Below, piece after piece: positions 1 through 36,524 of a DNA stretch of 38,544 nt (position 1 is its first letter; each line of letters opens with the position of its first letter). The notes under the pieces were generated by a model that made no database searches, was not told the DNA's origin, and worked only from the letters and a program-made list of their open reading frames with translations. Origin of the DNA: Perkinsus chesapeaki (Eukaryota > Perkinsozoa > Perkinsida > Perkinsidae). The stretch is from NCBI GenBank assembly GCA_013115145.1, contig JAAPAO010000331.1, positions 1 through 38,544 of the forward strand, read 5' to 3'. The translations under genes were made by a program, and so were the position numbers.

Positions 1-429
1 ACCTTTTCGCGATTTCCGCGGTAATCACTAGGCGGTTACCAGGTTTTCGTGATTTTCAGGTGCATCTCCAATGGCAATTATTTCCAGTGTCGTCTCCGCG
101 GCTTTCGGCACGCGGATCTAAACCTGAGAAGTTTCTACGCAAGAACAATTCGAGAACATTATGCACAATTAATCCCATACCAAGCATAGTGTACTCAGTT
201 ACGTCACTCAGTTCCATCCGATCATCGGATTCCGATGCTACATCATCAGTACGCTATCAATACTCCGCATCTGAAGTTCGGATTCCGAACTTCCGATCGG
301 CGCCCCTGTTCATAGGGCCTATGAACAGGCCGAGGGGCCTATGACATAGGCCGTACGTTCCGCCGTATTTCTGGAAATATTCTGCCCTTTCTAAGACACC
401 CTGTCACTCCATTTCTTTGTGTTTTTCCG

Positions 430-882
430 ATGAAACCACCAAGACCTGGCGATATCACTGGAGAGATGGTTAATGGTATCAATGTGAAGGAAGTCTTAGC
501 CATGATTGCGACGATAACGATAGCGTCAAGGAGAATAGCGACAAGGACGATATCGACATCCCAAGCGGTGTCGAGGTGAATAAAAATAGCGGCGATAGTT
601 CCCTATTCACTACTTATATAAAATCACCTCCAGCAAAAAGTCCAAGTAAGGCAATAAACCTTACCGCACCAAATCTCAGCCTGAAAGGTTCGGAGCGACC
701 TTCCCCCCTTCGCTGCCGGGACCAGTGACCTTAGCTCAGTCTCATGCGACAAAGCCGCTCGATGCTGCTATTTCATCTTCTCAGCTTACAGATAGGGCTC
801 GCGCCTTATCGTACAGAGAATACTACGCAAGGGCGTTTATCATTGACCATCATATTAAGACTGCGAGTGGCAGTGTGAGTTA
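430..882 (+). other. Possible broken coding region, two overlapping frames
   Basis: About 450 bases read as protein-like sequence in two successive frames. The first is open from about 460 to 726, rich in Asp, Ser, Lys and Pro (for example DNDSVKENSDKDDIDIPSG). It ends just after a run of six C at about 702-707. The second frame continues from there to a stop at 880-882 (containing LTDRARALSYREYYARAF). A one-base slip in the C run would join them. I do not recognise the product. It could be a decayed transposon gag-like region or an exon pair of an unknown gene. No start codon is convincing. Confidence 0.2.
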
Positions 883-1502
883 ATCGATCTGATCATCAGA
901 TTCTGACGAGAGTCCCATCATGGGACTTTGAGTCCCGTGGTTGGTCAACGTATATCTGGAGCTTTTCTCATGTTGAACGAGAATCGTATTAAATCTAACC
1001 GTCGAGAATGGTTCTGAGGGGAACAATGATTTTCCCCGCCGGTGGCCCACCCAAGGCACGCGCCTCACATACAAACAGGACTATGCGATATCGAAGTTCG
1101 TGGCCGGCGAAGTTGCCTATGTCCGACATAGTATGTCGTTGCTGAGAGACGCCTGGTACCTTCAAGGGGAAACAAGGCCTGGAGCAAAGCCTTCAGGGTC
1201 TGAAGTTCAGACTAGGTATGCTGTGAGATTACACTTGTCCAATGAAATGTCTGGGAGCTTTCTTGAGCGGGATCCGCTCCCCGGGAGCGGCTCCCGCCCA
1301 GAGCCTCAGAAGCAGATGGAAGAGAAAACTTCAAGAAGACCACGCTTGAGTTTTTTCATTGAGCTGAGGGAGGATGACGTGGGCAGAATAAAGTAAAAAG
1401 TGCCTTCAATGGCCAAAATAGAGGAATGTCTTCCAGGTTGGAGGTGAAAGTGGGCGACCGGTGTCACTTGATAATCAAGTCTGGATTGGCGACAACAATC
1501 AA

Positions 1503-1553
1503 TAGCAAAATATGAATAAATAGGAATTAATAATTCCTCATCATATTTTGCTA
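1503..1553. repeat. Inverted repeat, 13-bp arms
   Basis: The arms 1503-1515 and 1541-1553 are exact reverse complements. They enclose a 25-base loop that itself holds a 7+1+7 palindrome at 1523-1537 built on GGAATTA. A further 6+1+6 palindrome follows at 1557-1569. It could form a cruciform or RNA hairpin. No gene is associated. Confidence 0.75.
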
Positions 1554-2083
1554 GCAGGTCAAGTTGACCGCCAATTTAATAGATTCAGTCTATGGTGGCC
1601 ATTGAGAGTCATTTACGAGAAATCGGTGGGCTGTATTACAGACTGTAATTTACTGTACCTCAGCTGTAATTACCTCGTGAGTCACGAGTCGTGACACGTT
1701 GAACCTGTCAGGTTCCCAAACCTGGCTCACCTCGTGAAGCTCACCAAGTAGAGTCTATTGGGTAGATTGGGACCGACTCGGTCCGACCGAGTCATCCTAT
1801 TTGGGTGGTTCCGGTATACATCTCCATCACACGGCCATGCGCCATCAACCAGCCAGCCAGGGCGCCTGGGCCCTGAGCCCTTATTGAGTAAGCTAGCGAT
1901 GAGTCTACGATACCCGCGAGATAACTGATGATAACCGATGTTACTTTCGGTGACTTGGTCATAGTCTATGACTCATAGACTGTCACTCACAGCGAGTGCT
2001 GTACGTGCGCGCGCGTGCAGAAACCTTTGTGCAAGTGCAGGATTGCAATAAAAATGAACGCGCTGAGGCTCGATCCGGGATCG

Positions 2084-5000
2084 ATGATCTGGAAAAGACT
2101 ATTTTGCGTCGATGCCAAGTTCGAAACAAATAACGTGTTGGTCTCCGGGACTAATGTATTCGCCCGGAGGAATGAGCTGGACCAACCGATGGCTTAAAAG
2201 CTGGTCTATCCAGTGGCGGGATATGAATGCTCGTTCGCGGTTAGTTTTTAACATTTCCGCAAGTTTTCAAAACTGATGATTTAAAGGTATTGTGTTCCAA
2301 GTCTCTACTGATCACCTTCTAAGTGGATTCTATTTGCATTATGATTGAGATTCCAACGATTGTTGGTAGATCAGCCACTGAAGATAGCCAGCAGCAGCAG
2401 CAGACCCTTCGCACCACCAACACAACCAATCCATCACCCATGAGTTATGATATGAAATTGTAAGAGGAGCTATTTTCGCCAAATTGGCATCTTGCATGAA
2501 AATGTGGTATTGCCATATCGATAACCGATGTAAAAACATGTACACTCCCTGGAAGAATTCTCATGACGATTTGTCCTGGGAATGTTCGACACTTTTGTGT
2601 GCCTCTTTGTGCGTATGTTATTGATAGAACCATACTGGTTCGGATGTACTAACATTATATAGTATTCATTATATAGCATTATAAAAGGTTTTTCATTCGG
2701 GTTTTGGGTTTTCGTAATGCTCTATCAGGCGAATAATTATGTTAATCATTATTGCGGACGCGGTATCAAATGCAGCATTCGACTACTCAGCTTCACTGTC
2801 GCCGATGATCACATTTTTCACAATTCAAGTAAGTTGTTTAAATTTGCGTTTGAAGCTGTCAAACGAGCAATGCAAATGCAATTGATGGATGACTGGGACT
2901 GTGAAGGCTCACTGGTACCCAAGACGCTCGGCTACACAACTTCTACGGAGGAGGCTCACCAACACCATTGGAAGAATCTCAACCTAGTTTACATTTTGGA
3001 GAATTCCCATTTCTCAGCGTCAATGTCGAGTCAGCGAACTCCTGAGCGCTTCAACATCATAAGGGTATCTTCCGGAAATTTCCCTTCCGTATGAATATTT
3101 TTTCGGAAATTTCCCTTCCGTATAAATATTTTCCGGAAATTTTCGTGATTGTCGTCACGGTTTTGATTTTCGTGGATTTGAATTATTGTATCTCAGATTA
3201 TCCTCCACATACTACTCCTGTTGATGTCATTTTTGGTATCTTGGAGCACCTTCCTTCAGCAGTTTGGTTTGCTTGGGATGGCCTGCCGAGACGGATCCCA
3301 AGTGGTCTGTCTCGGAATACTGAGATTCGGTAATGAAGGAAAACGTATTTATTCATCATCTTCGTTAGCGTCTCTCCTCGTCGTTCGCCTGCCGAGATTG
3401 ATATCAGCGTTCGAGTCTGAAGAGCCGATCAACTATGATGGATTTCAATTGACGATCCACTCTATGATTTCGGCTTGGTTATATGTCGCAGTGCTGAGGT
3501 AGTAATTGGTAACTGTTCGATGCTCTCTTCGTTCATATATTCTACATTTGAGCTCGTTTGATAATAATGTGATAATAGTTGAATTTTCTACCGGGTAACA
3601 TTGCAGGAGGAATTCATCTATTTTGACTCCTGAAAAATATCCGAACAAATATTTATTGAAGTATCTGTATTGTAAAAATACGTTATGTGACAGCATTTTT
3701 TCATCACCATTGCCTCCGCCTATTAGCGACGAACTTTTGACCGCCGGGGAGTAGCTTTCTGTGAGGCTAGATGAACACAGGAATTGGTTTTAGGCGTTTT
3801 TTTCAAGATACGGTGTACAACTAGGTCGAGCTAAGTATTATGATCCTGAGATATGGGTTAAGTGCGCAGCCGGAAGATTTTGAAAGATACGCCTGTTCTT
3901 CTTCTTCCTCATGATGATGATGATGGCATGCTGTGCTAAGTGACTGTATTTTCCACAAATGATTGTTGCTCTGTTAGTAAGTCGAATTTTGGGATTGATA
4001 TCCAAATTCAGGCTATTGGGACCAGAACAGAGGGCGGAAAATGAGGGGGCCGAGGCGGGTTCATTTTTATTGCTGACCAGCGCAGCAGGAGGAATCACTC
4101 CATGGAATAGCGCCAAATATTTCTAGATTGAATTTGAAGCTTGATTCGTTCTCCCCGCAATCGAGCATCAGCAACCGCTTGTGGCTAAATGATTCCCTGT
4201 CAAGATCGGACACCTTTCCTTAGCCAATTCTGGTTCATCCATGCCTATAGCAGCATCTTCTTCGGTAGTAGCATTCTATCACCCTCAGGTGGAAGGGTCT
4301 TTACGGTTGGCGGATACAACATGGGTAGTAAATGGGGAATAATGCGACATTGGTGTAGAGCACTAAGTCGGAGAGATTATCGAGGCAGTTGTAGCGATTC
4401 TGTGGAGTTCTCTGGGCGATCCATTACTCTCGCGTGAAAAATCCGATGAAGGAAATTTCAACATTATTAATCATGCATGAATTAGTTAATTTATTGAACT
4501 ACTCTGAGAGTATATATTATATAGAACTGAAAGAAACGGGTTTAAGACAAAAAGACTCCGGGCGAGTGGGTCTGGAGGACATGGACCATGTCATAGATGG
4601 TCAGTTAATAACTAACAACCGTATTGTTGAATAACTGTCAATCTCTGTCCAAGGGTCACAGAATCGATTAACTCGTTAGACTGAGATATTTGGCATTAAG
4701 ACCTTATAGTCTACGGGAAAAATGCAGCCACAAGCCGGACAAGTTGTTTATCAGTACTCGACAAATCTTCGGGGTTCCTCTCCTGCATGCATAACCTCGT
4801 AATCAGGGCAATGGCAAGCTATTAGATGATGTTAAAGTCGGTGGTCCAGTTCGGGAAGCAGGAGTAAGTGGCTCCAGCTACCTGACGTGGACATGTGAGA
4901 ACTCATTGATTTGTGGATCGGAAGGTAATATCGGGAAAGGGTCAGAGTCGGTCTGCTCAATTCGATTCGTACTATTATCGGCTTTATTAAATTTATCGTC

Positions 5001-7689: not shown

Positions 7690-7760
7690 CCTTTTTAGTC
7701 TAGAGGTTAAGGGTTGTGTTTAGTAAGCCAAAGGTCCTCGGATCGATCCCTGGTTGATGC
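7690..7760 (+). repeat. tRNA-like sequence (SINE or tRNA pseudogene)
   Basis: It starts immediately after the NEDD1-like stop codon. An A-box-like TAGTCTAGAGG (7696-7706) is followed about 33 bases later by a B-box-like GGATCGATCCC (7740-7750). The acceptor ends do not pair, so it is not a functional tRNA. It may be the head of a tRNA-derived SINE, or may act as a Pol III-bound element next to the gene end. Confidence 0.4.
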
Positions 7761-9144: not shown

Positions 9145-9411
9145 ACTGCTAGGGAGACGTCAACTGGCCCATTCCTTCCGGTCGGCCTGATATCTGACTG
9201 TTGAATGCTCCTTGAATGGTAGTGTAACAAGCGCCAGTTTACCGCGTCAGTTGAACTACAAAGAATATGCCCAACAAAAAACGCAGATGGAAAACATGTT
9301 CACCCCGGGGATTATACTTCTGATGGAAAAGGGATAAAAATTTTTACGTCAACATATGAATTCCTGATGATGGTGCATTGAGTACGATCGTTGGTTGTTG
9401 TTGTTGCCCAG

Positions 9412-13910: not shown

Positions 13911-14240
13911 GTGCGACGTGTACGAAATCTCTCTGGGCAGCAGCTGTATGATGTGTCACTGAACCAGCTGCAACTGTACGAAATGGCCCTGAACGAGCGG
14001 CAACTGCACGGAATGGCACTGTATCAGTTGTAACTGTACCTAACAAAGTTGTACGGAATAATACTGTATCAACTTGATAGTATCAAGTTGATACTATCAA
14101 GTGCAACGAGACGAAATATTACTATACCAACTAATGCAAACATAGTTGGAAATGGACGGTTTGTCACTGTACGAGCTGCAACTGCACGGTATGAAACTAA
14201 CACGAATTATGCTGTACGAAATAGGGTTGTAGCAGTTTGA
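13911..14240 (+). repeat. Decayed 30-bp coding minisatellite
   Basis: Units at 13911, 13941, 13971 and 14001 are 30 bp, and further worn units continue to about 14240. In one frame the unit reads as a ten-residue peptide close to QLYEMALNER / QLHGMALYQL, and near 14170 again as LYELQLHGMKL. The frame is broken by stops (for example TAA at 14031-14033). It looks like the remains of a repeat protein or a minisatellite that once lay in a coding frame. A scar unit (14073-14094) sits inside it. Confidence 0.6.
14067..14102. repeat. Five-step alternating hexamer ladder / 31-bp palindrome
   Basis: TATCAA and TTGATA alternate five times, each separated by one base, giving a perfect 15+1+15 palindrome at 14072-14102. 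A perfect scar unit (14073-14094, W=CTTGATAC) lies inside. The outer arms look like a second event at the same place. Confidence 0.85.
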
Positions 14241-14612: not shown

Positions 14613-16207
14613 CTTCTCCAGTAGCAGCCTGATTTCTTATTTTTTCTACGTAGACCTCTATAAACGTTTCAAGGGTTCTCGACAGAGATGATATCAAGAC
14701 TTGATAATCAAGTAGTTACATTCATTCAATGCACTAACATATAATTGCACCTCAGGCCCTGAAGGTCAGTGCGCATAGATTGACTTCAATCACAGGCTGA
14801 TTAGGAAGGGTATAATATATGATATTATCATAATGATAATATGATGATCATATCGACGAGACACCAATCGACTAGTTATCAGCAAATGCGAGCATACTCT
14901 CTCAAATCCGAATCGTTGAACGTGATCGAGCTATCAAGGTAGTTTTTGCGTAGCTTCGCATACGTGAATGGGCTCCTTCGTGTGCGCAGTGCATCGTAAT
15001 AGATCGAAACCGGAATATCTCTTTCCGTCTGGGCACGTATGCATACCTTCCATCCCGTCGAATGCTATGATAGAATTGCTATCTTAGAGATAGCAACTGC
15101 GTCCGAGCGCGTCCGCCTGGCGTATGAGTCATACGGTATGACGCGCCACGTGTCTAGGGAAAGTCAGCTCGAGTCACGCAGGTAGTAGTGGAGCTGGATA
15201 CATAAGCAACAACTAACACCATCGATGATATTATCATTGGTCTGCGACTGTATGTGATGTACAGAAGCCGCTACGATAGCCACTGAATCTATTTTATCAT
15301 CTACATCTGCATCTACCATAACACTAGCTAAATCAAAAAATCCGTCTAAAATGTCCTCTACTATTTCGTAACTATTAGATAATTCAATTGTAGCACCTCT
15401 CAAAATTGCGTCAATTTCATGTTAGTTTCCTCGAATGCAGGTCACACAAAGCGGCAGCTGAGCCGGTATCAGTGAGCGGCTCACTTTGAGCCCGTAAAAT
15501 AAATTTTCCTCTAGAGAGCGTTGCATGCTCCATAGCGCTTCCGACACGTCTGGGGTTACAGCGGCATCAGCTGAAGTATCTTGTAGTACTCTCGTTCACT
15601 CTTTCACATCGTCTAGAGAGATTCGATCATCGCATCACGTTACGATCCCTGCGATGCATTACAGGCCAGTTAGCTCGGCGCGACATATCCCTCCTCGCGA
15701 AACTCCGAAAATGCGCAGTAGCTCGCATTGCAAGCCTTACGAATGGAAGTCATGGATTTGTTGGATAATCCAAGTAGGACTCAGGACATCTCTGGATTCA
15801 AAGCAGATTCAAGCCTGACACTGTCACGCTGACAGAGAATGTCTGCGCTCTGACAACGAACTTCGTTGAACGAAGCCCTAATGGAGCCAGTTTGACGGCC
15901 GGAGTCCGGCTTTAGTCTGCGGCTGAGCTGGCTAACGACGGAGTCCGGCGGTCGAACCACCTGACCACTGCTACGGTGCTTGGTATTTGCGGTGGGGGAG
16001 GGTGAGTGATCTGCGTGATAACGATTGGCTCACGTGAATTAGGTACACGTCAAACTCGTACACAGAATTTTTGACTTCTAACTGGTACATCAAACTTATT
16101 TACACCCGAATTCCAGTCAGGGAAATGTGATGTACCAAAAATAGGTCACTACCAAGTCGTACACAAAATCCCGTTCATCTTTGTGTTGCGGACAATGTCC
16201 GCACGAC

Positions 16208-16242: not shown

Positions 16243-16830
16243 CACACCCCAAAATTTGGCGCCTAGACCGGGTAAAGTGCGAATCCCAAATTGACCGTCG
16301 ATCAAATGGGAAAGCAGATCGGACGTTAAAACCGGTTCGAGCCTCGAACCGGGAGCCCTCGAGTTTCGAAGAAAATGCTCTGCGGGCTAGACATAGAGCG
16401 GCTGGGTAGACATAATCTTATAACCTGGTTGCCTGATGCACGTCGAAGCGGGTCACAAACCCGAGGTTGGTACTTCACAGTATGTGCAAAACCCACTGGT
16501 AATCGGGGAGTGGCTGGAACATATATCCATCCTGTCACACGAATCCTGTGTCAATAAGCAATGCTAAGCATTGAATGCCCATCAGGGGTCCCGCGATAGT
16601 CAAAGGACGTCGTCCTTTAACCGGCACCAGAAGCGTGAAATTGGCATACTGGCAGTATGATACCGCATTGCAGTAACTGCAACGCATTACGCACTCCAGC
16701 AGCTGGAGTCCACCTCATGGCCTTTCACTGGCTGCCCACTAAACTTTAGTGACTAAAGTAGACTACTACCTTCTCCACAGGGCCGGGCTAACAATGTTAG
16801 CCTAACATTCGTTGCCGAACGACTCGTGCG

Positions 16831-17167: not shown

Positions 17168-17407
17168 TATGGCACCACGGTGGTCACCACCGGGTGGTGC
17201 CGCCACCATAAGGCCACGACCCTTGCTTGACATGCAAATCAGCGGCCGGTTACTGCGACTCTGTGGGAGGCACCTCACAATATGAACTCATATTAGTCGT
17301 ATTATACGACAAGTGGGCCGGTAGTCCAATCACCTCCGCCATAGGTAGTCAGGTGGCCTAGGCAACAGTGTTGCCGCAACACTGTCACCACTAATTCACG
17401 TCATAAT

Positions 17408-17607
17408 ATGCAGCCCAATCTCTACGAGAGGAAAGGATTGGAACAATTTCAGAATAGGCCGACATCCACTAGGGATGACACAGGACAGACAAATATGGAC
17501 AGAAGAGAGCCATAACTAAAGAGGCATCCCCGACTCAGCCACAGCGAGTTCACAACAGAAACTGCCAGGCAGGGCGGTCAGTCGCACCGTGACACTGTGA
17601 CCGTGTG
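17408..17607. repeat. Dispersed repeat, copy A
   Basis: Shares about 170 bases with copy B (22748-22920): TGCAGCCCAATCTCT, then ATCCACTAGGGATGACACA, AGAAGAGAGCCATAACTAAA and GTCGCACCGTG. Against copy B it has a 14-bp insertion at 17592-17605 that forms a scar unit (17585-17606) with one mismatch, and lacks the 14-bp scar insertion present in copy B. Family not recognised. Confidence 0.75.
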
Positions 17608-18227
17608 GAAGGTGTCATTATAGACTTTAATAAGTGAAAATAGACCTTGTATTGAGGTAAGTTTTAGCCGGGTTTTCAGTTCTGGGACGCGAGGAATAGG
17701 AATCCGAGGGCGAGGCGGTAGTGTCGTAGGTAGTAGTTACTATAGTTAGTAACTGCTCTTGTGACAAGAGCATACAAAATACAATGAAAATCCTCGAAAC
17801 GTAGAACCTACACTCGAGAGGATTCGCTCGGCAGAAAGAAGTTGTTTCAAACAACATGCGTCTCCTTTGAGCTCATATGCAGGAGTCAACACCAAGCGCG
17901 TCTTATTACAGCACGCATATAACGTCTTATATGAGGCTTGTAACATGAGTTTTATACAAGTCTTTGGAGGCGTTGAAGATTCCTAACTCGCCACTAACAG
18001 CGGGCTTGGCCGCGCACTCCCTTAAATGTCATGTCACTCTCATTTGCAGTGCAAATTTTGCACGCATACCACGCTAAATTGGTAATTCAGAACGACTCGT
18101 GCCTCGGCCGTAATGTGGGGAGGCATCAAAACTTCGAGACTGTCGATGGCAGCTTGTATCATTAACGGTGCACTCTACCTATCCTCCCTTCGTTAGGTCA
18201 CAGTATCCTCCTTTATCCATTTCCCTC

Positions 18228-18671: not shown

Positions 18672-19815
18672 CTCACTTCAGCTGCTCTCATGGGCTTTCA
18701 GAAGCCTAACGTTCTTCGACTATCAAAAGATCGAGACTCATTTATCGAGCAGCCTTGGCAGGGGAGTCATCCAATTCATCAGCCGCGATGGCAAGTCGAC
18801 GTGGTGCTACATTTTTTCCAGTAAAACTTGTTATTGTTTTGTTATTGGAGAGTAACAAATCAGTGTCATGTCGAATGAGTGACTCAAACTCCGAACCGAC
18901 GTGCTTTGATTTCATCCCAACCTCTCGAGTGAGCGCACCCTAATTTCACTTCGACACACTTCGTGTACCGTGCTATGAATCCCCTCAACGTATCCAGCAG
19001 GGCCGCTAGAAGCCATAAGCGGGGTGCGAGGACCGACGGATCGCTAAAGGAGGTAGATTCTAGCTCCATCACCAAGTAGGAGCTTTCGGCTTCTACCAGA
19101 CATGAGCCATGTAAGCACTGCTATTTAAGCTGACATTTGTGTAGGTGGATATATTTGTGGCCCAATTCGGCATATAGTTGGGGGATTGAGATTAGTTTTA
19201 CTGTTAATCTACGTTACACTATGTCCAAGTATTGTTATCCCACTACTGTATGCAATGAAATGAGCACATTGTCATAGGAACATCGTTTCATGCAGTTTGT
19301 TCACAAATATTAAATCAGAGAACAGTCGTACGAAAATTTGGTGGAGACAACATGCCGATGAACAGCAAGCTGTTCGGCATCACGAGGCAGAACTATAAAG
19401 TCACTGCAAGCAGGCGATGATCCGCTGTATCGAGTCGTCATCGGAGTTTCCCTAGGGCTCTAGCTTACGTTTCGCTGGCACAGAAACACCGCTACTAGCG
19501 GTCCGCTAGTGTGACGTTATCAATGATAACTTATCATGGACCTTTTTTTGTTATTCGGACAGCCTTTTCTCACAGTAGAGATATTTCTATTAGGATAGAA
19601 TTAAGGCAAACGTGAAGGCCTGATTAGTTATTAACTAATTGATTTTCTTAGGGGTAACCCCTACCGCGAGATTGATGTCCCTATTCGCGAAAATGATTGC
19701 CTTATTCGCCAAAAATTTGTGGCCCTCAAACGCGAAATAGATTTCTGAAAAGCATAGTATACCAATATTCCTAGAATATTAGTCTCCAAAGGCTGAACTA
19801 AATTTTTGTCATCGA
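18672..19815. other. Intergenic; palindromes only
   Basis: No gene seen. It contains scar units 19488-19509 and 19516-19537 and the palindromes 19623-19639 and 19649-19663, just upstream of the first intact tRNA pair. A bulged hairpin (GAACAGC/GCTGTTC) lies at about 19357-19382. Confidence 0.5.
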
Positions 19816-19888
19816 GCGGCTTTGGCGCAGTAGGTAGCGCGTAGGTCTCATAATCCTAAGGTCGCGAGTTCGATCCTCGCAGGCCGCA
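19816..19888 (+). tRNA. tRNA-Met (CAT), elongator type
   Basis: A 73-base cloverleaf including discriminator A. Acceptor GCGGCTT pairs with AGGCCGC, the D arm contains GGCGCAGTAGGTAGCGC, the anticodon loop CTCATAA gives CAT, and the T arm is CGCGAGTTCGATCCTCGC. No intron. Identical copies at 26398 and 32206. A convergent tRNA-Leu follows after 65 bases. Confidence 0.93.
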
Positions 19889-19953
19889 CTAATATATCAA
19901 ACATAATGGAATGACATTATGTGATGTATACCACTTGGTGATGTAAAGTTAAT
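19889..19953. promoter_or_regulatory. Conserved spacer of the convergent tRNA pair
   Basis: The spacer is conserved at 26471-26535, recognisable at 16890-16955, and split by an insertion at 32279-32486. It holds an 8-bp hairpin (ACATAATG / CATTATGT, 19901-19922). Neither strand has a run of four or more T, the usual Pol III stop, in this copy or the second. Role unknown. Confidence 0.55.
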
Positions 19954-20034
19954 GTCAGCTGTGGGATTCGAACCCACGAGGATCTCTCCACCAGAACTTG
20001 AGTCTGGCGCCTTAGACCGCTCGGCCAAACTGAC
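19954..20034 (-). tRNA. tRNA-Leu (CAA)
   Basis: Minus strand. Acceptor GTCAGTT pairs with AGCTGAC, followed by discriminator A. A box TGGCCGAGCGG, anticodon arm CCAGA-CTCAAGT-TCTGG giving CAA, long variable arm typical of leucine tRNA, and T arm GTGGGTTCGAATCCCAC. No intron, although tRNA-Leu(CAA) carries one in many animals. Confidence 0.92.
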
Positions 20035-22150: not shown

Positions 22151-25100
22151 CTATAATCGCGTAGTAGTTCTGTGATAGTCACAATGATGTCCCAGCCAAA
22201 GATAGACAACTCGTTCTTCATCCTCACCTGGCCAGTCTATTAACCGCCCATTCATGGTTAAATGGACAGATATCATCCTCAGCACACCATAGCCTCTCCG
22301 CAACAGCAGCAGCTCTGGGCCATACTCGGGGCATGAAGACACTCTCATCAACCGACTCGCCTGCAATGAGGGCAATCGATCCAGAGGAACGTTGGATTTT
22401 TGGGCCCAGAAGGAATGTGTCATTTATTGCTTCCCTTTGGTTGTCTAAAAACGTATTTTCTACCAAATTTCCGTCGTATCTCCTTTTCCGCATTTCTGTG
22501 CGACTAGATGCCCCCGTGGCTCGCTCTGGTTCAGTTTTGCGCATTCTGAATTCCACATCGAATGATTAGATCCAATACGCCACCTGGTTCAACCCGAAAA
22601 ACTTTTCAATTAGCCGCGCACATTTGATGGTTCATTTCAAGACTTGGTCGGCGAATTGAGGAAATAGCGGTATGAGCCTACCCCACATGCAAGCCTCCCC
22701 TCCAACCAAAATGCCATTCTTGTCTCGTTTAAAAGGGACGTCGTAAAATGCAGCCCAATCTCTGAGAAAGGAAATAATAGCTCAGCATCCACTAGGGATG
22801 ACACAAGACAGATAAAAATGAACAGAAGAGAGCCATAACTAAAGAGACATGATGTCTCAGACATCCCCGACTCGGCCACAGCCAGGAACTGCCACGCAGG
22901 GCGGCCAGTCGCACCGTGTGCGAGAATCAGTAACGAAACGTTCTCCATGTTGCGTGGTGAGAATCAATAACGAAATGATCTATGACACCTGCATTTTCTG
23001 GGCGAATCACCAATTTAGTGGCACTAAGTCCAATTTCAAGAGTTTTTCCTTGAAAGATTGAAGGTGGCGAGCTTGAAACATATAATAATATATAGTAGAA
23101 GTACAAGGTTATAAACCCGATTTTATACAATACACCAAATAATCGAAATATACAAACTTACTGCCCAAGTAGATCAAGATAGAAAGCAGAGCTGAAAATT
23201 AAACTTCTGAACTTCCCAGACTCTGCCATCTAAAAACCAAGTTATGAAAGCGATTGTGTGATCGATTTACTCACAGCCAGTGTCCTTGAGGCATCGTACA
23301 GCCAAATCTGCCATGTGTCCACAACATCCGTCTCTGTAGGGTTGTCATTCAGGAAGTCATTCCACAGAATCACAGTTGCTCCTGGAATGCAAATGAATTC
23401 CGATAAGCAATTTTCGGAGACAGGATTTGTGTCGGGGACAATTTTATTGTGCAACGCCAACGGCACGGAAAATTGCTAAAATTTTCTGGTCGGGTTAGAC
23501 TGGGGCAAGCTCGATCCATTGGTGATCGAGTTGGGAGAGTTGGATGAAAGTAATTAAGTTAATTCCTTTTCTACTGTTATTAATTAAGTGCATTAATTAG
23601 CATAAGAATTAACTAATACATTAACTAAGTATTAGATAATTGGATCTCTTCAGCATTTCTAGATGTCGCGCACTGTAATTAATCAATTTAATTATTGAGA
23701 AGACGAATTAGCATTTACCATTAATTTTATTTTATATCAACTATCATCAATTATTTTATGAAGGTAAATATTAATTAACATTATTAATTCATATAAATTT
23801 ATTAAGGTTATTAAGGTTACCTTTTGTATAACTTTTCTCAAGTTCTCCTTTTACAAGTGTTTCAGGAAGTTGTCTGTCCCAACTAACCCGCATGGGTTAC
23901 CTGTTTTCTCTTTAACTTCCTTCACCGCATGAGACAGCCAATAATCGACTAAATCTGTGCGGTTGTGGAATTTGCTAACAAAGCGAGGTAGCATTCAGCC
24001 ATTCAGGTAGGATACTCACCCGTGTTCTTGTGTCCATTTGGTGAGGGCCGCGGAATCCCAGGCATCACCGATTTCGTCACCTCCAAGGTGGAGCACCTTA
24101 TCTCCTGAAAACTGTACTTCCATTTTCGTCAAGTTAGCTAAATATTAATGCGGCAATGAGTTTAGTGATGCTTCATGGAAAAATACTCTATGCACGGCGA
24201 ACTTTCGAGCGGATTGCCGCACTCGATTTTTCATCCAGCACGCCGAGCTTGATTTTTGTCAGGCTCTGTACGATAAAGATCGTCATTAGTTATCGATGGA
24301 CTCATCGAGCTTTACCGTTATTGATTCTTCCGGATGCGTTGTTATAGAAGATATCCACGACCTCGGACATCACCGCGACGGTCATCTCTCTTGTCTTATC
24401 ATTTATGGGGTCCATCCAATACTTGGCGTCACCAGTGAGCCAGGGATATCTGATGACAACAAGGATAAACGGGACACCACCGTGGAGAGGAGGGACTGTA
24501 TTTCGCTCACCCATCGACGCAACACAAAACTGCTTCACATTCGGCGTCCAAGTGAAAAGTTTTGAAAAAGCCTACTTTTTATGACGTGACTGTAAGTCTC
24601 TCCGAGTCTAGCTCGTGAAGATGAGATTGCTACTCGGTTTTACAAACCCGAAACCGAGGGACAATTTTTCCCAAACTAGACTGAGCCATTTTCGGCAACG
24701 GTCCATGGTACGGCTGGTATCAATAGTAAAGGACGACTTCTCACCTCATCTTTCTTAGAGTGAAATTTTATAATGAACTATGAACCGTTTGGTTTTTTGT
24801 ATTTTCCAAACCTATTTGTAAAGGGTTTCAAAACTTCATTGGTCGAGTATTTGATCTGGAATCGGATGAAAAGTTATGGGACACCTTTCACAACGCAATC
24901 CTCTTACCCTCGGAGCCAGCTGGTCGTATGTGCTGGAACGTCAATCTCGGGTATCACTTTGATGCCCAAACGGTTCGCGAATTTCACGACGCTTCTCACC
25001 TCCGCCGGAGAGTAACTGAAGTTGCGTCGCCGACCAGGCGTGAAGTTGGCCTACGAGACAGGTGTGGGGTTCTTCTTCTGAAGGTCGGGGAAGCTATCGA

Positions 25101-26176
25101 GCTTCAATGAAAAGCTTATGTCGTCCGAAAGATGCCAGTGAAGGACATTCATCTGAAGAGGGAAGGGGACACTGCCCTTTCTAAAACGCTCGCAATTCTA
25201 TCAGCCTCGTCCGAGATTTCCGGCGGTGTCGATGCCGCCAGCTATTCTGGAAACTTTATAACAATTCGCTCACACCGTGTTCTGGAAGTGAACATACTTC
25301 AGGAGGGCAGTGTAGTGAGTTCATTAGTGTTTAAATATATGCATGTTCTCGCGGCGAATATGAACTGGCGGAAAAAATAAATTTCGAGATACTTCACAGA
25401 GTTCTTTGCATTAAAGAACATGTTATCTATGGCGATTCGGCGGAGTCAACCGAGGAAGAATCAACCAGAACTAGAATTTATAAAACTGTTGAGCGGGTCG
25501 AAGACTGGCAACCTTGAATCAATCTTCGATGGAGTGGTGGATGGCCCTTATACAGAGAGTTATTGGGGAGCATTAAACGTTCCCAGAAATGATGCATTTG
25601 GTCACCAAATTTTGGTGCTCCTCCAGGCCCTAGGGACCAATTTTCAAACGGAGTTCCTAGTATACAGGGTTTCCGCATTACGAACATCTTTTAGGTTACA
25701 CGTGAGGGTAGATAAATCCATTGTCGTTCGCCGAGCTCACCTTCGTCCAAGCCATAATGATGAGGTTCTTCTCAATGACACTGACCGGGAGATATCTGCG
25801 TCCTGTGTCGATAAGCATCCCCCGGTGATCGAAGGAGGGGTAATCGACGACAGTGAAGCCGTGGTAAAGCAGTGAGAATAAGTCCTCCTTGTGGTTGTGT
25901 GCGATTTGGAACTGAGGAGCCGACAATGTGGATACGGCTATGCCACGACGTTCTCTGATGATCGATATTGATTATGTTCAGTCACAGTGACAGAGTAGAG
26001 ATGTCAATCAATGACTGCCGAAGTTCCCACACCACTTACACCGGTGGCAGCTCCATACAAGAACCCAACTCGTGTGCTGTACTTCATGTGGCATCTCAGT
26101 TTCTCGCAGTTCAGCTCATAGCCTTCCCTCGGCTGCTCACTGTCGTAGACTACGGCGGTCTTTACGGGGTTGCCGC
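22151..26176 (-). CDS. Beta-N-acetylhexosaminidase (GH20), 12 exons
   Basis: Minus-strand exons: 26040-26176, 25741-25911, 25055-25152, 24908-25015, 24316-24449, 24020-24104, 23901-23974, 23275-23381, 23162-23229, 22989-23023, 22228-22444, 22151-22169. All splice phases agree, giving 416 residues plus stop without the N-terminus. GH20 landmarks in order: YELN...GFLYGAATG (GH20b end), DYPSFDHRGMLIDTGRRYLP, NVLHWHLSDDISF, IKVIPEIDVPAHTTSW, the catalytic Asp-Glu in VLHLGGDEIGDAWD, VILWNDF, DTWQIW, FSSAFYLD and VWPRAAAVAERLW. The enzyme removes terminal GlcNAc/GalNAc from glycans, in lysosomes or outside the cell. Introns of 39, 45 and 45 nt and a 35-nt microexon are notable. The last 19-nt exon rests only on splice sites and phase. 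The start is missing; see 27139-27208. A dispersed repeat and two scar units lie in its introns. Confidence 0.88.
22748..22920. repeat. Dispersed repeat, copy B, in a hexosaminidase intron
   Basis: Same family as 17408-17607. It carries a perfect scar (22844-22865, W=GAGACATC). Removing 14 bp restores the sequence of copy A at 17518-17531 apart from one substitution. It lies in the intron between exons 22989-23023 and 22228-22444. Confidence 0.75.
25596..25617. repeat. Scar unit in a hexosaminidase intron
   Basis: Perfect unit with W=ATTTGGTG inside the 588-nt intron 25153-25740. Confidence 0.85.
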
Positions 26177-26397: not shown

Positions 26398-26470
26398 GCG
26401 GCTTTGGCGCAGTAGGTAGCGCGTAGGTCTCATAATCCTAAGGTCGCGAGTTCGATCCTCGCAGGCCGCA
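26398..26470 (+). tRNA. tRNA-Met (CAT), second copy
   Basis: Identical to 19816-19888, with the same downstream spacer and convergent tRNA-Leu. If the exon at 27139-27208 belongs to the hexosaminidase gene, this pair lies in its first intron. Confidence 0.93.
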
Positions 26471-26535
26471 CTATTATATCAAACATAATGGAATGACATT
26501 ATGCGATGTATACCACTTGGTGGTGTAAAGTTAAT

Positions 26536-26616
26536 GTCAGCTGTGGGATTCGAACCCACGAGGATCTCTCCACCAGAACTTGAGTCTGGCGCCTTAGACC
26601 GCTCGGCCAAACTGAC
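26536..26616 (-). tRNA. tRNA-Leu (CAA), second copy
   Basis: Identical cloverleaf to 19954-20034; anticodon CAA, no intron. Spacer to the tRNA-Met is 65 bases. Confidence 0.92.
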
Positions 26617-27046: not shown

Positions 27047-27068
27047 CCTGCTGACAGCAGGCTGCTGT
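27047..27068. repeat. Scar unit
   Basis: Perfect unit with W=CCTGCTGT. A nearby 8-bp hairpin (GCGCACAA / TTGTGCGC, 3-base loop, about 27022-27040) and GTGCATGCAC lie just upstream. Confidence 0.85.
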
Positions 27069-27394: not shown

Positions 27395-27416
27395 AAAGCT
27401 ATTGCAGCTTACTTTT

Positions 27417-31106: not shown

Positions 31107-32108
31107 CTATATGCTTCTCGGGAGTCGACTTGACCTTCTCCTGAGAATGATGCGAATAACTACTAATTGAAATGACTGCCTCGTAGACGACAACGAAACT
31201 GCTTTCCCGCGATAAAGTGCTCTTGTAGCACCAAGAGTCAGGCCCTCTCTATCAGGCACTGATTCGTGTTCGGGCAGTCCGTCCAGAAGGAACGTCTCCA
31301 CCTTTCTGTTTGGTAGTCCAGCAACACATTTTGTGGCCCATTGTGTCTCGGCATTGCAGGCGTTTTCAGCTTCTTGCGGAAAGCAATAATCGGCGGTGAG
31401 ATGCTTCCTTGATTGCACTGTGCCATTATTTATTTCTAATATCGATGTCATAGAGGGATAATATGACTATTTACATTGGGAAGTAATACAGTACCCGTGC
31501 CGCCTCACCAGTCTGGAAGTGCGTTAATACCGAATACTTCTACATTCTGATTTTAATTACAAAATTATTTGTTATTTTATTCGGTTTAAGAATCATCAAA
31601 TCCATGGAGCTAGGAAATGAACTCCTGTGCTCCAATCAGATATCTCGCCAGAATAATACCGAATCGTTACTTCGCGAACTATCCTCGCTCCTCATGAGCC
31701 TTACCGTAGAAATGATGCTCCCGCTCGTGGCGCAAATCTGTGCTACCTCCGAGTGGATGTTTTTTTCTGCCTCATTTCGAGACCTAACAGGTTTAGCAGT
31801 CCATACCACAATTCCTTTTCGAAAGGGAACGTTCACAAAAAAATCGATCAACCCTGTTCGAGTGAGTCGATCAACAAAAGGTTTAAGCGAACTCTCGTCC
31901 CAGAATCACAAAATCCTAAACTCTCAGAAACCACACTTTCCGACTGAGCTATCTTGTAACTAGCAACAGCTGAACGACGGCGAGAAGTATCCAACAGAAA
32001 CGGTTCCAGAGAGCTCACCGTGAATTATCAGTTGTACGATGTTTTTTATGCGGAGGACTGGAGTCGTGCCGTGACGAGCATTCCATAAATATTTCAGCAA
32101 GTGGCAAG
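31107..32108 (-). CDS. Candidate exons of an unidentified minus-strand gene
   Basis: Three protein-like stretches with splice-like edges. 32019-32108 lies between CACCTCCAG and GTGAGC. About 31705-31851 ends at GTAAGG and encodes RSRNEAEKNIHSEVAQICAT. 31107-31451 is cysteine-containing and includes CFPQEAENACNAETQWATKC. Spaced cysteines suggest an extracellular protein. They may belong to the same gene as 29329-30337 or to one upstream of it. The opposite strand is open over 31604-31963, which weakens the case. No family assigned. Confidence 0.25.
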
Positions 32109-32205
32109 CTGGAGGTGAAAAAATGACATAATTGTTGTGCAAGCTTACTCGCCCCCACAAACTCTAGAGGAACCACGTGTGAGACACACCAATAGTTGAG
32201 ATCGT

Positions 32206-32278
32206 GCGGCTTTGGCGCAGTAGGTAGCGCGTAGGTCTCATAATCCTAAGGTCGCGAGTTCGATCCTCGCAGGCCGCA
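32206..32278 (+). tRNA. tRNA-Met (CAT), third copy
   Basis: Identical to the copies at 19816 and 26398. Its spacer to the convergent tRNA-Leu is enlarged by an insertion (32321-32458). Confidence 0.93.
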
Positions 32279-32320
32279 CTATTATCTCAAACAAAATGAA
32301 ATGACATTATGTGATGTATA

Positions 32321-32458
32321 TTTATTAATATAATATAAACTATATATATAATTATAATAACCAGCTATACGATAACTAATAATATATTCTATTCACTAAT
32401 AATATCTATATAAAATACCAATAAATGGTAATATTGCTATAGGGATAAATTTATATAA
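32321..32458. mobile_element. AT-rich 138-bp insertion in the tRNA spacer
   Basis: In the other two pairs the spacer reads GATGTATACCACTTGG. Here GTATA (32316-32320) is followed by 138 AT-rich bases and then GTATA again (32459-32463), so the insertion is flanked by a 5-bp direct duplication. No clear terminal inverted repeats are seen; internally ACTAATAATAT is repeated. A short non-autonomous element is likely. The 5-bp duplication is not the 8 bp expected of hAT. Confidence 0.6.
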
Positions 32459-32486
32459 GTATACCACTTGGTGTTGTAAAGTCAAT

Positions 32487-32567
32487 GTCAGCTGTGGGAT
32501 TCGAACCCACGAGGATCTCTCCACCAGAACTTGAGTCTGGCGCCTTAGACCGCTCGGCCAAACTGAC
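32487..32567 (-). tRNA. tRNA-Leu (CAA), third copy
   Basis: Identical to the copies at 19954 and 26536; anticodon CAA. Confidence 0.92.
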
Positions 32568-32918
32568 TCTGCACATCCCTCGCGATATCTCGCCAAATAT
32601 CCTAATTCAGTTACACACTTTTCTATGTATCCTTCTGTGAACACTTTGACAATTGATTCGGATAGAAGCCTTTCAATGACCAAACACCCAAACAGAGTGT
32701 TGTCAAAAACAGTAACTATCATTTTCCCAAGTTGCTAATTGCAACGACCGAGAGTTCATCCCCGAAAGTATATCAATCTATTTCCTCTCTCCCTGTGGGA
32801 AAGACTTTTGTTTAATATTTCTCCCTGCCCCCCAGCGCCAAGCGTTCCCTTTATTAAACAACCAAACGAAGCCTATGCTTGAATAACAGCATGACAAGCG
32901 TGATGATGGAATCAACAG

Positions 32919-33708
32919 TCAAAGTCTTGCGGGACGATTTTGCCTTCTGGACACCTGAAAGACGAAAAATGTTTTTTGGGCAACTTCCCGAGAGCACAAG
33001 CCGCCTATCCATCAATAAGAATCTATTTATTTTCATAATTGGCATCTTTCACAATATCTATTAATTCCGATTATTTAGATTTCAAATCCTCCCAGCTCAC
33101 ATAAAACTAAACTGATGTTGTCGGTTGCTGTTGAGCTGCTTCTCGACGGGCTTTGTACTAAACAAGCAGACAGGTCGCAGGTTCGAATCCCACCGACTCC
33201 ATTTTACCTTCGGTTGTCGACGAGGCATCGCCGGGATGCCCTCTTCGCTCGGCATCGCCACCGAATTATCGACGAACGGCGAAGTCTGTAACATTGTCGC
33301 GGCGAGCGAGGAGGCTGAAAAAATGGGTAAAATTAATTTACTTCTTGTAATTTGCAGAGACGTTTAAGCTGAGTATCTTATAACCAATGAGGAGGTTGCA
33401 ACCACTGAAGAGTCCTCACTTCTGGAAGACACCGACCTATGCCATCACACCAACTCACCCATACTCCGTTCCTGACCCCTGACAACTGATGACGGCTCCA
33501 CTGCGGTGCTCGATACCGCCTCACTTGCCGCTGGTTGTTCCAGACGACCCTGGAAAATTGCTACTTTTTATTGATTTCAGCATTTCCCTTTACCTTCGTT
33601 GCAGAGCTATTCGGTTGCCTCAACGCCGCACTGGCGTTGATAACCCCCCGAATCTTCTTACTTGCCGAAGACGCACCTGTCATCGTTCGTTGAGCTCGCG
33701 CTGGTCGC
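32919..33708 (-). CDS. Low-complexity Ser/Ala-rich protein, partial gene
   Basis: Minus-strand exons 33594-33708, 33459-33549 and 33208-33314, each between a strong acceptor (ATTTTCAG, TTTTCCAG, TTTTTCAG) and a GTAAAG, GTGAGT or GTAAAA donor; phases match throughout. A last exon 32919-32954 (after GTCTTTCAG) fits in phase 0 and ends in TGA after eleven codons. The peptide is disordered, rich in Ser, Ala, Arg and Pro (TGASSASKKIRGVINASAAL, AASEAVSSTAVEPSSVV, VAMPSEEGIPAMPRRQPK). No domain is recognised. The first exon(s) with the start codon are not found. A tRNA-like sequence sits in the intron directly next to the 33208 donor. Confidence 0.5.
33120..33201 (+). repeat. tRNA-like sequence with B box
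   Basis: GGTTCGAATCCC at about 33180-33191 is a perfect Pol III B box and the sequence ends CACCGACTCCA like a tRNA 3' end, but the T stem is mismatched and no good A box is seen. Read as protein on the other strand it gives the WDSN peptide typical of conceptual translations of tRNA-like repeats. Probably a tRNA pseudogene or SINE in an intron. Confidence 0.4.
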
Positions 33709-34734
33709 CTGAAAATATTATATTTTACCAAAAGAACACTGCGTTTTCTAATTTGCCAGTGAAAAAATTCCAGAATCGGAAAGACCAAAATAGGTACATT
33801 TTCTTGCTCCCCGAAGTATACAGAATCGACTGGTCTGTTCGATTGAGCAGTTAAAAACTGAGTGTATATCATACGGTATGTGCAATACGTAAATTAAGTA
33901 GTTAACCTTCTTTCACTGTAACGGATTTCGGACAACTCATCTTCCCCAAATGCTACCCGCGAAGAGGATATCTTAAAATTTTCCTACAGAAAATAAATAA
34001 ATTTCCGAACTATACAAACTGAAAAATTTTCTATTCAAAAATTCTATCTATCATTCCTATATCTCTTTGGTGAAGGATCTCTTCGTCTTTCTGGAAAGCT
34101 CATCCGAGAAAACCAGACTTGATAATCTTCGACCCGAACCCGTCATCTCCCCAATTATGCGCCTATTTTAATACGATTTACTCAACAGTGTTTCGATACT
34201 TTTCGTACGATATTGTCATTAAAGTGATCTTCTCTTTTCAAATGTATCATTACTTTCTATACATTTCCCCATTCTGCATTTTAACAATCGTTTATCAGTA
34301 TCATATTTTTTAATCTTGCTTTCTATGTTTTCTTCCAATAATTGAATAATAAAGAAAATAATAAGAAATATGGAGAGAGAATTGAAATTTAATTCTCTCC
34401 ATATTTCTTACTTATTATTATTTTGAAGTGAAAAAACGTTTTCTAAGAAATTTTCCCGAAATTCAGAAATTCCGTTTTAATACTAAATTCTATCATTCGT
34501 TCATTGATGCGATATTTCATATGACGTCATTTTTATTTTCAGCATTTTCCCACAGCGCCATCCGAAGTTGGTTCGAGTACTTATCACACAAATGGTCGTT
34601 TGCCAGTTTAACATCATTGCAGAAGTCAACGGAAAATTATTTATTATCAATTCGCTCAGATTCATCATCATTAATTAGCTATCAATTCATTTCCGCAATT
34701 CCGTTATAAAAGCCGAAAAGTGCCACCACCCGAC
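33709..34734. other. Intergenic or intronic; long inverted repeat
   Basis: 5' exons of the 32919-33708 gene should lie here but could not be identified. A minus-strand open stretch at about 34510-34630 (LANDHLCDKYSNQLRMALWE) is a weak candidate. The plus frame 34428-34709 has no domain. Confidence 0.4.
34355..34424. repeat. Long inverted repeat, about 30-bp arms
   Basis: The left arm 34355-34383 and right arm 34391-34424 pair through AAATATGGAGAG and AATAATAAG with one 4-base and one 2-base bulge around a 7-base loop. It can form a stable stem and may be a small fold-back element. Confidence 0.75.
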
Positions 34735-36524
34735 TTACGGCTCGAAAAATTTATACCAAAGAAATAGAACCAGCGCAGTGATGACGAAAATTCCGCAAAG
34801 AAGGAGAAGTGGGATGCGACGACTGTTCGACTCGACCGGCGGCGTCGTCGTCGGAGCCACCGTTGTCGGAGCCAAGGTGATCGGTGGAACAGTGGGACTG
34901 AAAAAAGAGAATGATACTGAAGTACTAACTAAGTCGAACTCTGACTATTTCATATCAATATGGTGGGACTCCCACCGTGGGAGTCATTTTGTAAGTATAA
35001 ATTTGATATAAACTGTTATTGAATATTTATTCTCCCTACTGGATCGTCGGTTTATCTATCTGTTGATTATTATTAGTATCGAGGCATGCTATATTATTAA
35101 CACATCAGTCCTTCCAAGCGTGCAAAGGGATTGTAAAATATGTTCGTCCGCGAACAGCTATCTACTGTGTTCAATGTGACAGTGAGCTGGAACGACAGGA
35201 AACGAACAGCTCGGTAAAATGATCTGGAATATCAACTTGATAATATTAATCATCTGACGAGCCGATTCTTCCGATCAGACGTTCTCAATAGACCGTGAAT
35301 CCCTTACGCCAGTGTAGCTGCCATGGTTGTGATGACCGCAGCAGCTGTTGTTGGTTGTGATGGTGCGATTGTTGTCGAAGATGGTTGCTGGGGAGACGAA
35401 GTAACTAAGTCATAACAAGTAGTGTGCCTCCTCGAAGCTTAGCAGTTTGACAACTACAGTGCGATGGAGAGCTCTAGGAAAATTATCAGTAACAGGTAAC
35501 CACAGCAGTAAGCTCGAACTTTAATTATATATATTATTTACTATCTTTTTTTCTCGAGTGGCAGCACCCCTCCTCTCACCAGGCAGCAGACAGTATAGGA
35601 GTATTGCTGCGTGCTCACTCACTCGTGGAAGGCTAAGCAGCAGCAGCCCTATGAAGTGTAGAGGCCCCATGAGGGTTAGTTTATATATATATAGTTTATA
35701 TGTATATATAGTTTATATGTATATATAGTTTATATGTATATATAGTTTATATAGTTTTATATATAGTTTATTATAGATTTATTAACTTATTCTAGCCATT
35801 CATGAACATCGAGGAACAGTATGACATAATTATCGAATAGAGGGCAAGTAAGTGAATTATTAATGTGCTTTAAGATATATCAAGTCTAGCAACCAGAGTG
35901 GACCTCTTCGAGATACACTTTGTGTGTTCCGTACTGAAATGTAGACTTTGATATACACATCACTTAGCAAACTGTCCTGTCGCATATTATATGCACTATA
36001 TCGCTTCGTCTGTTAGATTGATTAGTTCATCAACCCCGTCTTGGGGATATCGACCATCGACAATCTTCACAGCACATGAAAGCGATTATCATTCTTACCA
36101 CCTGCGGCTTGAGCTGTTGTCGATGCCACTGTTGTTGGTTGAGATGGAGCGAGTGTTGCTACTGCTGCGGGGGAGGCGGTGGTGGGAGCGGAATCTAACC
36201 GTGAGGTAATGGTTGCATGAATCGTATTATTTAGTGCGATTGTGTTATGGTTAAGAAACTGTCCCCACAAAAATCAAGCGCTTTCTCTCTGGACCGAACA
36301 CCTGATGCTCCTCTATGTGTTTCGGCAGAATCTGCCCGCTTGCTGCCACCGTCCGAGATGAGGCGAATTGAACACGACAGCACCGACAATAACTTACTGA
36401 GAATAACTTTGCCAAGATGAGACTTCCCAATGGTAATCCCCGCTGTTAGGCGGAAAAATAAAAGGAGAAATGCCGGCCCAATGAGCCGCAGACGAAATAA
36501 GTCGATGGAAGAATGTAGTAACAT
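34735..36524 (-). CDS. Mucin-like type I membrane protein (complete, 160 aa)
   Basis: Exons 36398-36524, 36099-36194, 35308-35404 and 34735-34897; donors GTAAGT, GTAAGA and GTAAGG; all phases agree; ATG at 36522-36524, TAA at 34735-34737. A signal peptide (IGPAFLLLFFRLTAG) is followed by about 85 residues almost wholly of Thr, Ser, Pro and Ala, with APSQPTT occurring in two separate exons and then LAPTTVAPTTTPP, a stalk expected to be heavily O-glycosylated. It ends with one membrane helix (IPLLLLCGIFVITALVLFLW) and a five-residue tail (YKFFEP region). Exons 2 and 3 look duplicated from each other. It lies 114 bp downstream of the 36639-37805 gene in the same direction. Function unknown; surface-coat role inferred. 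A scar unit lies in its last intron. Confidence 0.72.
34962..34983. repeat. Scar unit in an intron
   Basis: Perfect unit with W=GGTGGGAG, inside intron 34898-35307 of the mucin-like gene. Isolated: the nearest other unit is about 6 kb away. Confidence 0.85.
35677..35780. repeat. AT-rich minisatellite, 17-bp unit
   Basis: About five units of AGTTTATATGTATATAT, the last ones shortened. It lies in an intron of the mucin-like gene. Confidence 0.85.

Follow-up and report, generated by a model that had tools for sequence, protein, structure and literature searches.

The window analysed here comprises 38,544 bp of DNA from Perkinsus chesapeaki, a parasite of clams (contig JAAPAO010000331.1). It carries short units that follow the rule W(1-7)+rc(W)+W(2-8), with a different 8-bp word W in each; 22 perfect units and 16 units with one mismatch were detected (Table 1). 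All 21 perfect units listed in the original prediction are present at the positions given there, a 22nd at 1275 had been missed, and the number of one-mismatch units had been underestimated at about 13. Every perfect unit has w8' and w1' as the centre bases of its two palindromes, as both are fixed by the rule. These apparent spacer bases were correctly described as complements of the outer flanking bases, and this complementarity is the diagnostic detail of the unit. For word length k=8, 22, 16, 16 and 26 matches with 0, 1, 2 and 3 mismatches were counted in the window, compared to 0/2/9/65 for k=7, 0/0/0/3 for k=9 and 0/0/0/2 for k=8 in one shuffled copy of the window; these counts were not de-duplicated, and one unit can match a second time in a register shifted by 7 bp.

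Table 1 Units and related features in the window
Feature	Position	Strand	Source
Perfect unit W=ATCCGATG	216..237	.	rule scan
One-mismatch unit	269..290	.	rule scan
Other one-mismatch units (starts)	887, 1191, 1466, 1635, 1694, 5692, 13741, 14066, 14080, 15471, 16645, 16661, 16694, 17834, 20280		rule scan
Perfect unit W=CTATGTCG	1117..1138	.	rule scan
Perfect unit W=CGCTCCCG, CGCTCCC CGGGAGCG GCTCCCG, missed before	1275..1296	.	rule scan
Perfect unit W=CTCGTGAC (1674-1695) and overlapping second unit (1694-1715)	1674..1715	.	rule scan
Perfect unit W=GGACCGAG	1770..1791	.	rule scan
Perfect unit W=GTCATAGA	1958..1979	.	rule scan
36-bp nested scar, W=CTTGATAC (14073-14094) inside unit W=GTATCAAG	14066..14101	.	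rule scan
Perfect unit W=TATCAAGT	14692..14713	.	rule scan
Perfect unit W=TATGATAA	14818..14839	.	rule scan
Perfect unit W=CGTATGAC	15121..15142	.	rule scan
Perfect unit W=CAACGAAG	15854..15875	.	rule scan
Overlapping pair of one-mismatch units	16645..16682	.	rule scan
Perfect unit W=CACTAAAG	16737..16758	.	rule scan
Perfect unit W=GCTAACAT	16787..16808	.	rule scan
Nested scar with perfect unit W=CGGTGGTG (17178-17199)	17172..17207	.	
Perfect unit W=GGCAACAC	17361..17382	.	rule scan
Paralogous segment without the 22844 unit, empty site GAGGCATC (17521-17528)	17463..17591	+	
Perfect unit W=ATTTGCAC	18042..18063	.	rule scan
Perfect unit W=ACCGCTAG	19488..19509	.	rule scan
Perfect unit W=GTTATCAT	19516..19537	.	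rule scan
Perfect unit W=GAGACATC, 14-bp insertion versus paralogue 17463-17591	22844..22865	.	
Perfect unit W=ATTTGGTG	25596..25617	.	rule scan
Perfect unit W=CCTGCTGT	27047..27068	.	rule scan
Perfect unit W=GGTGGGAG	34962..34983	.	rule scan

Beyond the window, the scan was extended to 20 further stretches of the genome, which amount to 184,860 bp with N excluded. At k=8 they gave 31/22/28/50 matches with 0/1/2/3 mismatches, likewise not de-duplicated, and no perfect unit of k=7 or k=9 was found in them. For the pooled 223,404 bp, 53 perfect units were counted versus a mean of 0 across five Markov shuffles, and k=8 was the sole length with perfect units among k 7-12. The units occur genome-wide: in 16 arbitrary stretches 18 perfect ones were detected, corresponding to 119 per Mb. 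After de-duplication the classes with 0, 1 and 2 mismatches comprised 58, 38 and 38 units. As a control, 50 kb of E. coli K-12 were scanned at k=8, with 0/0/0/2 matches, and a P. chesapeaki stretch with a nested unit showed no match when compared to E. coli. The recurrence of k=8 units is thus confirmed. The sharp length peak at 8 that had been predicted was observed in the window and in the 20 other stretches, and the description of the units as scars, not a repeat family but the result of a shared process, holds in the DNA examined. In the accessible parts of the open-licence literature searched, no account of such units in Perkinsus was found.

The rule was also varied in arm length and overlap (k 7-11, p and q 0-3), and only k=8 with p=q=1 was independently prominent. 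The largest other combination in the pooled DNA was k=9 (1,3) with 34 matches; with a little more DNA included, 36 of 39 matches to this combination, and four of five for k=10 (3,3), sat on perfect k=8 units. The remaining combinations among those listed had 2-5 matches each. Palindromes with even spacing were no more frequent in the window than in shuffled sequence.

Several scars overlap. At 14066-14101 the inner unit sits in register in the middle arm of an older one, with no mismatch in 28 constraints, and the nested scar at 17172-17207 has one mismatch in 28. The overlaps at 1674-1715 and 16645-16682 are each compatible with two scars formed one after the other, whichever came first, again with one mismatch in 28 constraints. 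Since scars are mutated and some are nested in others, they were inherited over long times and not made afresh in each generation. Their age profile is roughly flat.

Empty sites were sought by comparing 211 unit matches (at most 3 mismatches) within the sampled DNA of the same genome. In three paralogous pairs one copy is 14 bp longer at W, the unit being W plus 14 bp; the matches beyond the pairs described here were uninformative. The first pair is formed by the unit at 22844 and the empty site at 17521-17528 of the window. The second, L018:1313 and L018:9404ff, has a clean 14-bp gap, and in the third, L018:9740 and about L018:1860, W itself has diverged. In the same stretch, L018:1245 and L018:9368 are separate scars 6 bp apart at a single ancestral site.

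Each unit is very probably the healed donor site of a DNA transposon of the hAT superfamily, mostly mended by annealing. On insertion, an 8-bp target W would be duplicated to give W-element-W. A cut one base into the flank is known for hAT excision; hairpin repair was reportedly studied in yeast by Yu et al. in 2004 (cited in PMC5873905). On excision, the transposase would cut both flanks one base outside the element and seal their ends as hairpins, the left one running w1..w7 into w8'..w1' and the right one, on the other strand, w8'..w2' into w1..w8. Nicking of the hairpins by host enzymes would leave the 3' overhangs w8'..w1' and w1..w8, which would be complementary because both derive from one 8-bp target duplication. 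The commonest outcome would be annealing of the overhangs, fill-in and ligation to W(1-7)+rc(W)+W(2-8). This product would be 14 bp longer than the empty site wherever the nicks fall, as long as the overhangs overlap within W. In a simulation with overhangs of 5-8 nt the rule was obtained in all 3200 of 3200 annealed cases. The strand chemistry assumed for P. chesapeaki would be that known from Hermes and Ac/Ds.

As a rarer outcome, the opened ends would be joined without annealing. L014:627-656 reads exactly W(1-7)+rcW+rcW+W(2-8), the blunt join of two 8-nt overhangs in this model. The search for two-hairpin joins with a centre distance of at least 8 gave 10 rows, of which 7 were kept, versus 1 row from five shuffled sets. 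Among exact products, 58 annealed units stand against 2 joins at a centre distance of at least 8 and 3 at distance 3-6; incomplete bridges (4-7 nt) amounted to 5 distinct sequences compared to 53 complete ones. Small footprints with 2 and 3 P nucleotides were in mild excess (18 and 14 rows versus shuffle means of 9.6 and 3.8), those with 0 and 1 P nucleotides numbered 92 and 42 rows (means 62.8 and 37.0); in these counts low-complexity cores were removed, rows were not de-duplicated and footprints with deleted flanks escape detection. Because of the mild excess of the classic 2-3 nt footprints, the annealed product can be called strongly, but not totally, dominant.

The words W show the motif nTnnnnAn: among the 58 perfect units, T2 occurred in 27 and A7 in 37 (binomial p 1.5e-10, with both positions chosen after inspection of the logo). 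Older scars with 1-2 mismatches had T2 in 36 and A7 in 37 of 76. The surplus of A7 over T2 on the + strand (37 and 27), despite a strand-symmetric rule, was taken as noise. Target duplications of 8 bp with nTnnnnAn were reported for Hermes (PMC10368747, PMC2803484), and 8 bp is the length given for hAT elements in Table 1 of PMC4423477. In the P. chesapeaki genome the hAT C-terminal domain PF05699 was detected above the Pfam cut-off at four places and PF14291 (DUF4371) at two, both in one gene on C379. The hAT reading frames observed are relics, either short or disrupted. Searches for an intact element, one with an 8-bp duplication and terminal repeats that match, gave no firm case and only weak matches; the best candidate, the weak and unproven L024:3154-6766, has a duplication of 8/8 and an inverted repeat of 9/10, and its first 347 bases, the sole end searched, are single-copy. 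All 43 repeat matches at 1e-10 in the 223 kb lay inside single stretches and none between stretches; hence the element itself is unseen in this sample. The missing donor would be a hAT element.

The scars might instead stem from a different superfamily that duplicates 8 bp (Merlin, P or a MULE) or from a RAG/Transib-type element, which we regard as unlikely. Merlin elements duplicate 8-9 bp of target, and P. marinus is reported to contain Merlin-related genes as well as remnants (PMC8101967). However, the Merlin DDE domain (PF12762, IS1595-type), the family of this group covered by the search, had no match in the P. chesapeaki genome, with a matching control in Haloferax volcanii, and nTnnnnAn is the motif reported for the hAT element Hermes. 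Transib and RAG make 5-bp duplications and hairpins without base loss, but the corresponding form W+rc(W)+W with k=5 was not found in 231,904 bp; when the loss of one base was allowed for, the k=5 form occurred 7 times in the window versus once in one shuffle, chance matches being common at this length. P excision leaves inverted-repeat remnants, whereas the units contain only W.

A programmed excision by a host-owned, hairpin-forming recombinase of hAT type, removing many unrelated short segments as in the removal of ciliate IES, is quite improbable. It would suit the many scars next to almost no visible elements and the one dominant product, and Kat1 is a precedent for hairpin-capped breaks made by domesticated hAT proteins. 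On the other hand, the scars are mutated and in part nested, i.e. inherited over long times, and ordinary hAT relics are present in the genome. Replication template switching, a short local fold-back copying without transposon, produces small inverted insertions, and odd-centred palindromes are in excess outside the units, too. Variable lengths and no motif would be expected from it, but a length of exactly 8, nTnnnnAn and two fixed centre bases were found, which makes this origin very improbable. An artefact of sequencing or assembly is hardly credible: inverted joins are known from amplification and the units were read from a single assembly, yet their fixed length, target motif, de-duplicated mismatch classes (58/38/38) and paralogous copies with and without units speak against it.

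No repair-gene pattern accounts for the proposed bias towards annealing at the donor breaks, since a partial Ku domain was detected in the genome and the only polymerase-A match resembles bacterial Pol I most. Thus, a lack of classical end joining as cause is unsupported, and polymerase theta was not retained as a candidate, the single family-A match being nearer to Pol I. The Ku_N profile was uninformative, as its controls had no matches.

Hairpin footprints of hAT elements are already known. In plants, S. cerevisiae and C. albicans, footprints of Ac/Ds likewise contain palindromes whose centre is the complement of the base next to the element, and they share the opening of hairpins and the use of microhomology (PMC5873905). 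In contrast to P. chesapeaki with one dominant complete double-palindrome, the Ac/Ds products reported there are mixed: the 128 footprints from C. albicans fall into 28 types, and 66 of the 140 from yeast have palindrome arms of at least 3 nt. Hermes shares the 8-bp nTnnnnAn duplications and the hairpins on the donor flanks (PMC10368747, PMC2803484). Hermes is active, whereas nothing beyond scars and hAT relics was seen in the P. chesapeaki sample. P nucleotides are also carried by V(D)J coding joints; these have no 8-bp target duplication, their ends are non-complementary and their product is not fixed. They are comparable in that opened flank hairpins leave palindromic bases, a likeness to hAT elements noted in PMC2803484. 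Kat1 of Kluyveromyces lactis is described as a hAT-derived hairpin maker, but its hairpin-capped breaks serve mating-type switching and do not lie at thousands of different sites.

What is new is that the complete annealed product dominates, that scars are so numerous, that their ages are spread roughly evenly and that visible elements are nearly absent from the sampled DNA. It is conceivable, although rather doubtful, that hAT-type activity continued at a roughly constant rate over a long time with almost invisible elements, leaving at most about one detectable scar per kb sampled, mostly as annealed hairpins. The scars would then be a partly layered, self-dating record of jumps, which may reflect hit-and-run or host-owned excision and not a normally multiplying transposon. 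The mild excess of classic small footprints weakens this reading.

Tracing past cut-and-paste excisions is usually difficult, as their footprints are complex; in rice, exactly two duplication copies were left in only 8 of 94 excisions from several superfamilies (PMC4423477). With a fixed 22-bp grammar, many past excisions become countable and datable by their mismatches, and for some nested scars it can be told which came first. Thus, it becomes testable how often hAT elements jump without multiplication, which end-joining pathway is used on hairpin breaks in this alveolate lineage and what share of its intergenic DNA consists of scars. Any genome can easily be scanned with the rule.

The 22-bp unit W(1-7)+rc(W)+W(2-8), built on an 8-bp target W, was searched by direct scan for this rule at different lengths k of W. 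At k=8, 22 units in the window matched the rule perfectly and a further 16 deviated from it by one mismatch. The window gave no perfect unit at k=6, 7 or 9-13, and one shuffled copy of it held no k=8 units with 0-2 mismatches. The sharp peak at length 8 claimed in the original prediction was confirmed in 20 further stretches of the genome (184,860 bp without N), with 31 perfect units at k=8 versus none at k=7 and k=9. In 50 kb of E. coli K-12, k=8 units with 0, 1 or 2 mismatches were absent and two with 3 were found. In the 16 stretches not picked for a hAT match (150,673 bp), perfect units numbered 18, or 119 per Mb, and were unevenly spread: nine of the 16 had none, and one had seven. Extrapolation to the 35.4-Mb genome, of which the window is one whole contig (C259) and which was studied here in one assembly, gives roughly 4,200 perfect units.

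Empty sites were compared for 211 unit hits. Within the window, one segment of a paralogous pair carries unit 22844, and the other has an uninterrupted GAGGCATC at 17521-17528, shorter by exactly 14 bp. In stretch L018, one segment is present in two diverged copies with a clean 14-bp gap at unit 1313. Unit 9740 of L018 is a third case with a 14-bp gap, where W itself has diverged. The remaining matches were uninformative either way. At L018:1245 and L018:9368, each of two paralogous copies has a scar of its own, the two scars being placed 6 bp from each other on what was one ancestral sequence.

Of the 58 perfect units, 27 have T at position 2 of W and 37 have A at position 7; the binomial p of 1.5e-10 is for positions chosen after a logo of the data had been seen. 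Older units with 1-2 mismatches (n=76) showed the same lean, with T2 in 36 and A7 in 37. The construction of the unit does not impose this preference, and the pattern, nTnnnnAn, is the target reported for the hAT transposon Hermes (PMC10368747, PMC2803484).

In the proposed mechanism, a hAT element would be flanked by two copies of W before excision. Upon excision one base per flank would be lost and each flank end sealed as a hairpin. Nicking of the hairpins would leave two 3' overhangs, from W and rc(W), able to anneal over up to 8 bases, and fill-in would complete the 22-bp unit. Simulated annealing and fill-in with overhangs of 5-8 nt produced the unit in 3200 of 3200 cases. The unpaired hairpin tips would become the two 'spacer' bases, which match tip bases of this kind described for Ac/Ds footprints (PMC5873905). 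We infer annealing as the repair pathway behind the units. A partial Ku domain was detected in the genome; the presence of polymerase theta was not established there by family search.

If open hairpins were joined without annealing, two odd-centred palindromes would result at other centre distances than 7, with W still common to both. Such pairs at any distance were scanned in 231,904 bp. Exact matches numbered 58 at distance 7, 13 at distances 1-2, three at 3-6, and one each at 15 and 28. In five shuffled sets pooled there were 33, all at distances of 1-4; the 50 kb of E. coli gave one at distance 1 and one at 5. With a few mismatches allowed, ten matches were found at distances of at least 8, whereas the five shuffled sets together contained one such match and E. 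coli had none. Three of the ten were discounted, two being one poly-T site in stretch L020 and one, at window 14811, overlapping a unit. Of the seven that were kept, the one in stretch L024, at distance 10, does not surpass the single shuffled match. L014:627-656 (distance 15) reads exactly W(1-7)+rcW+rcW+W(2-8), as a blunt join of two 8-nt overhangs would. A mild excess was seen for small footprints of 2 and 3 P nucleotides (18 and 14 rows versus 9.6 and 3.8 in shuffled sequence); among detectable products the annealed one is thus the most frequent, but not the sole one. These variants speak against a fixed 8-bp copying device and in favour of hairpins that were opened and then, in most cases, annealed.

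Long odd-centred palindromes were observed at L006:1447-1497 and L030:4978-5018, with arms of 25 and 20 nt. The former fits a two-hairpin join in which the opening of one hairpin lay some 26 nt away from the tip. Outside units, palindromes with arms of at least 9 nt in the window and 21 other stretches numbered 8, 6, 7, 8, 5 and 8 for odd spacers 1-11, and were rarer for even spacers 0-10 (1, 1, 3, 1, 1 and 2). The odd-spacer excess perhaps represents old or long hairpin joins.

hAT domains were found at four places in the genome and DUF4371 at two, in short or broken frames; both DUF4371 places belong to one gene on contig C379 (107,349 bases). The hAT relic of this contig is 100% identical to Perkinsus chesapeaki FOL47_007452 over the aligned 73% of the query. 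Scars are present at hAT-relic loci. The sole candidate element within the sampled stretches, a doubtful 3.6-kb hAT remnant at L024:3154-6766, has identical 8-bp flanks TATGCTAC and a short inverted repeat (9/10). The hAT domain inside it is broken, and several scars lie there too. No repeats common to different stretches were detected at 1e-10 in 223 kb. Elements could be hidden by the fragmented assembly of repeats.

The midpoints of 96 de-duplicated units with at most one mismatch were located relative to stop-to-stop frames, which are not annotated genes. Frames of at least 100, 150 and 200 aa held 29, 9 and 4 midpoints and made up 48%, 22% and 15% of the DNA, respectively. Long open frames thus tend to hold fewer units than their share of the DNA. 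One gene of the window gave a 63% match to P. olseni. The same contig carries a convergent tRNA-Met/tRNA-Leu pair in three copies, about 96-98% alike over matched parts.

tRNA features of the window
Feature	Position
Convergent tRNA-Met/tRNA-Leu pair	19816-20034
Convergent tRNA-Met/tRNA-Leu pair	26398-26616
Convergent tRNA-Met/tRNA-Leu pair	32206-32567
Seventh tRNA (Leu)	27316

Scars lying within or against other scars were identified at eight places (two overlapping), with at most 2 mismatches per 28 constraints; one shuffled set had none. The best case is window 14066-14101, with one unit in register within the middle arm of another. Where overlap is limited to the edges, the relative order of scars cannot be read. 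This in-register re-hit and the double hit in L018 hint at local hot spots.

De-duplicated units with 0 to 5 mismatches numbered 58, 38, 38, 61, 121 and 517 in the 231,904 bp, against Markov means of 0, 0, 0, 12, 73 and 405. The excess is about 58, 38, 38, 49, 48 and 112, where the last figure stands over a high background. Because the unit-rich window and hAT-relic loci are among the stretches, the estimated density of about one scar per kb lies toward the upper side. The roughly flat mismatch profile would fit steady accumulation of scars and not a single burst.
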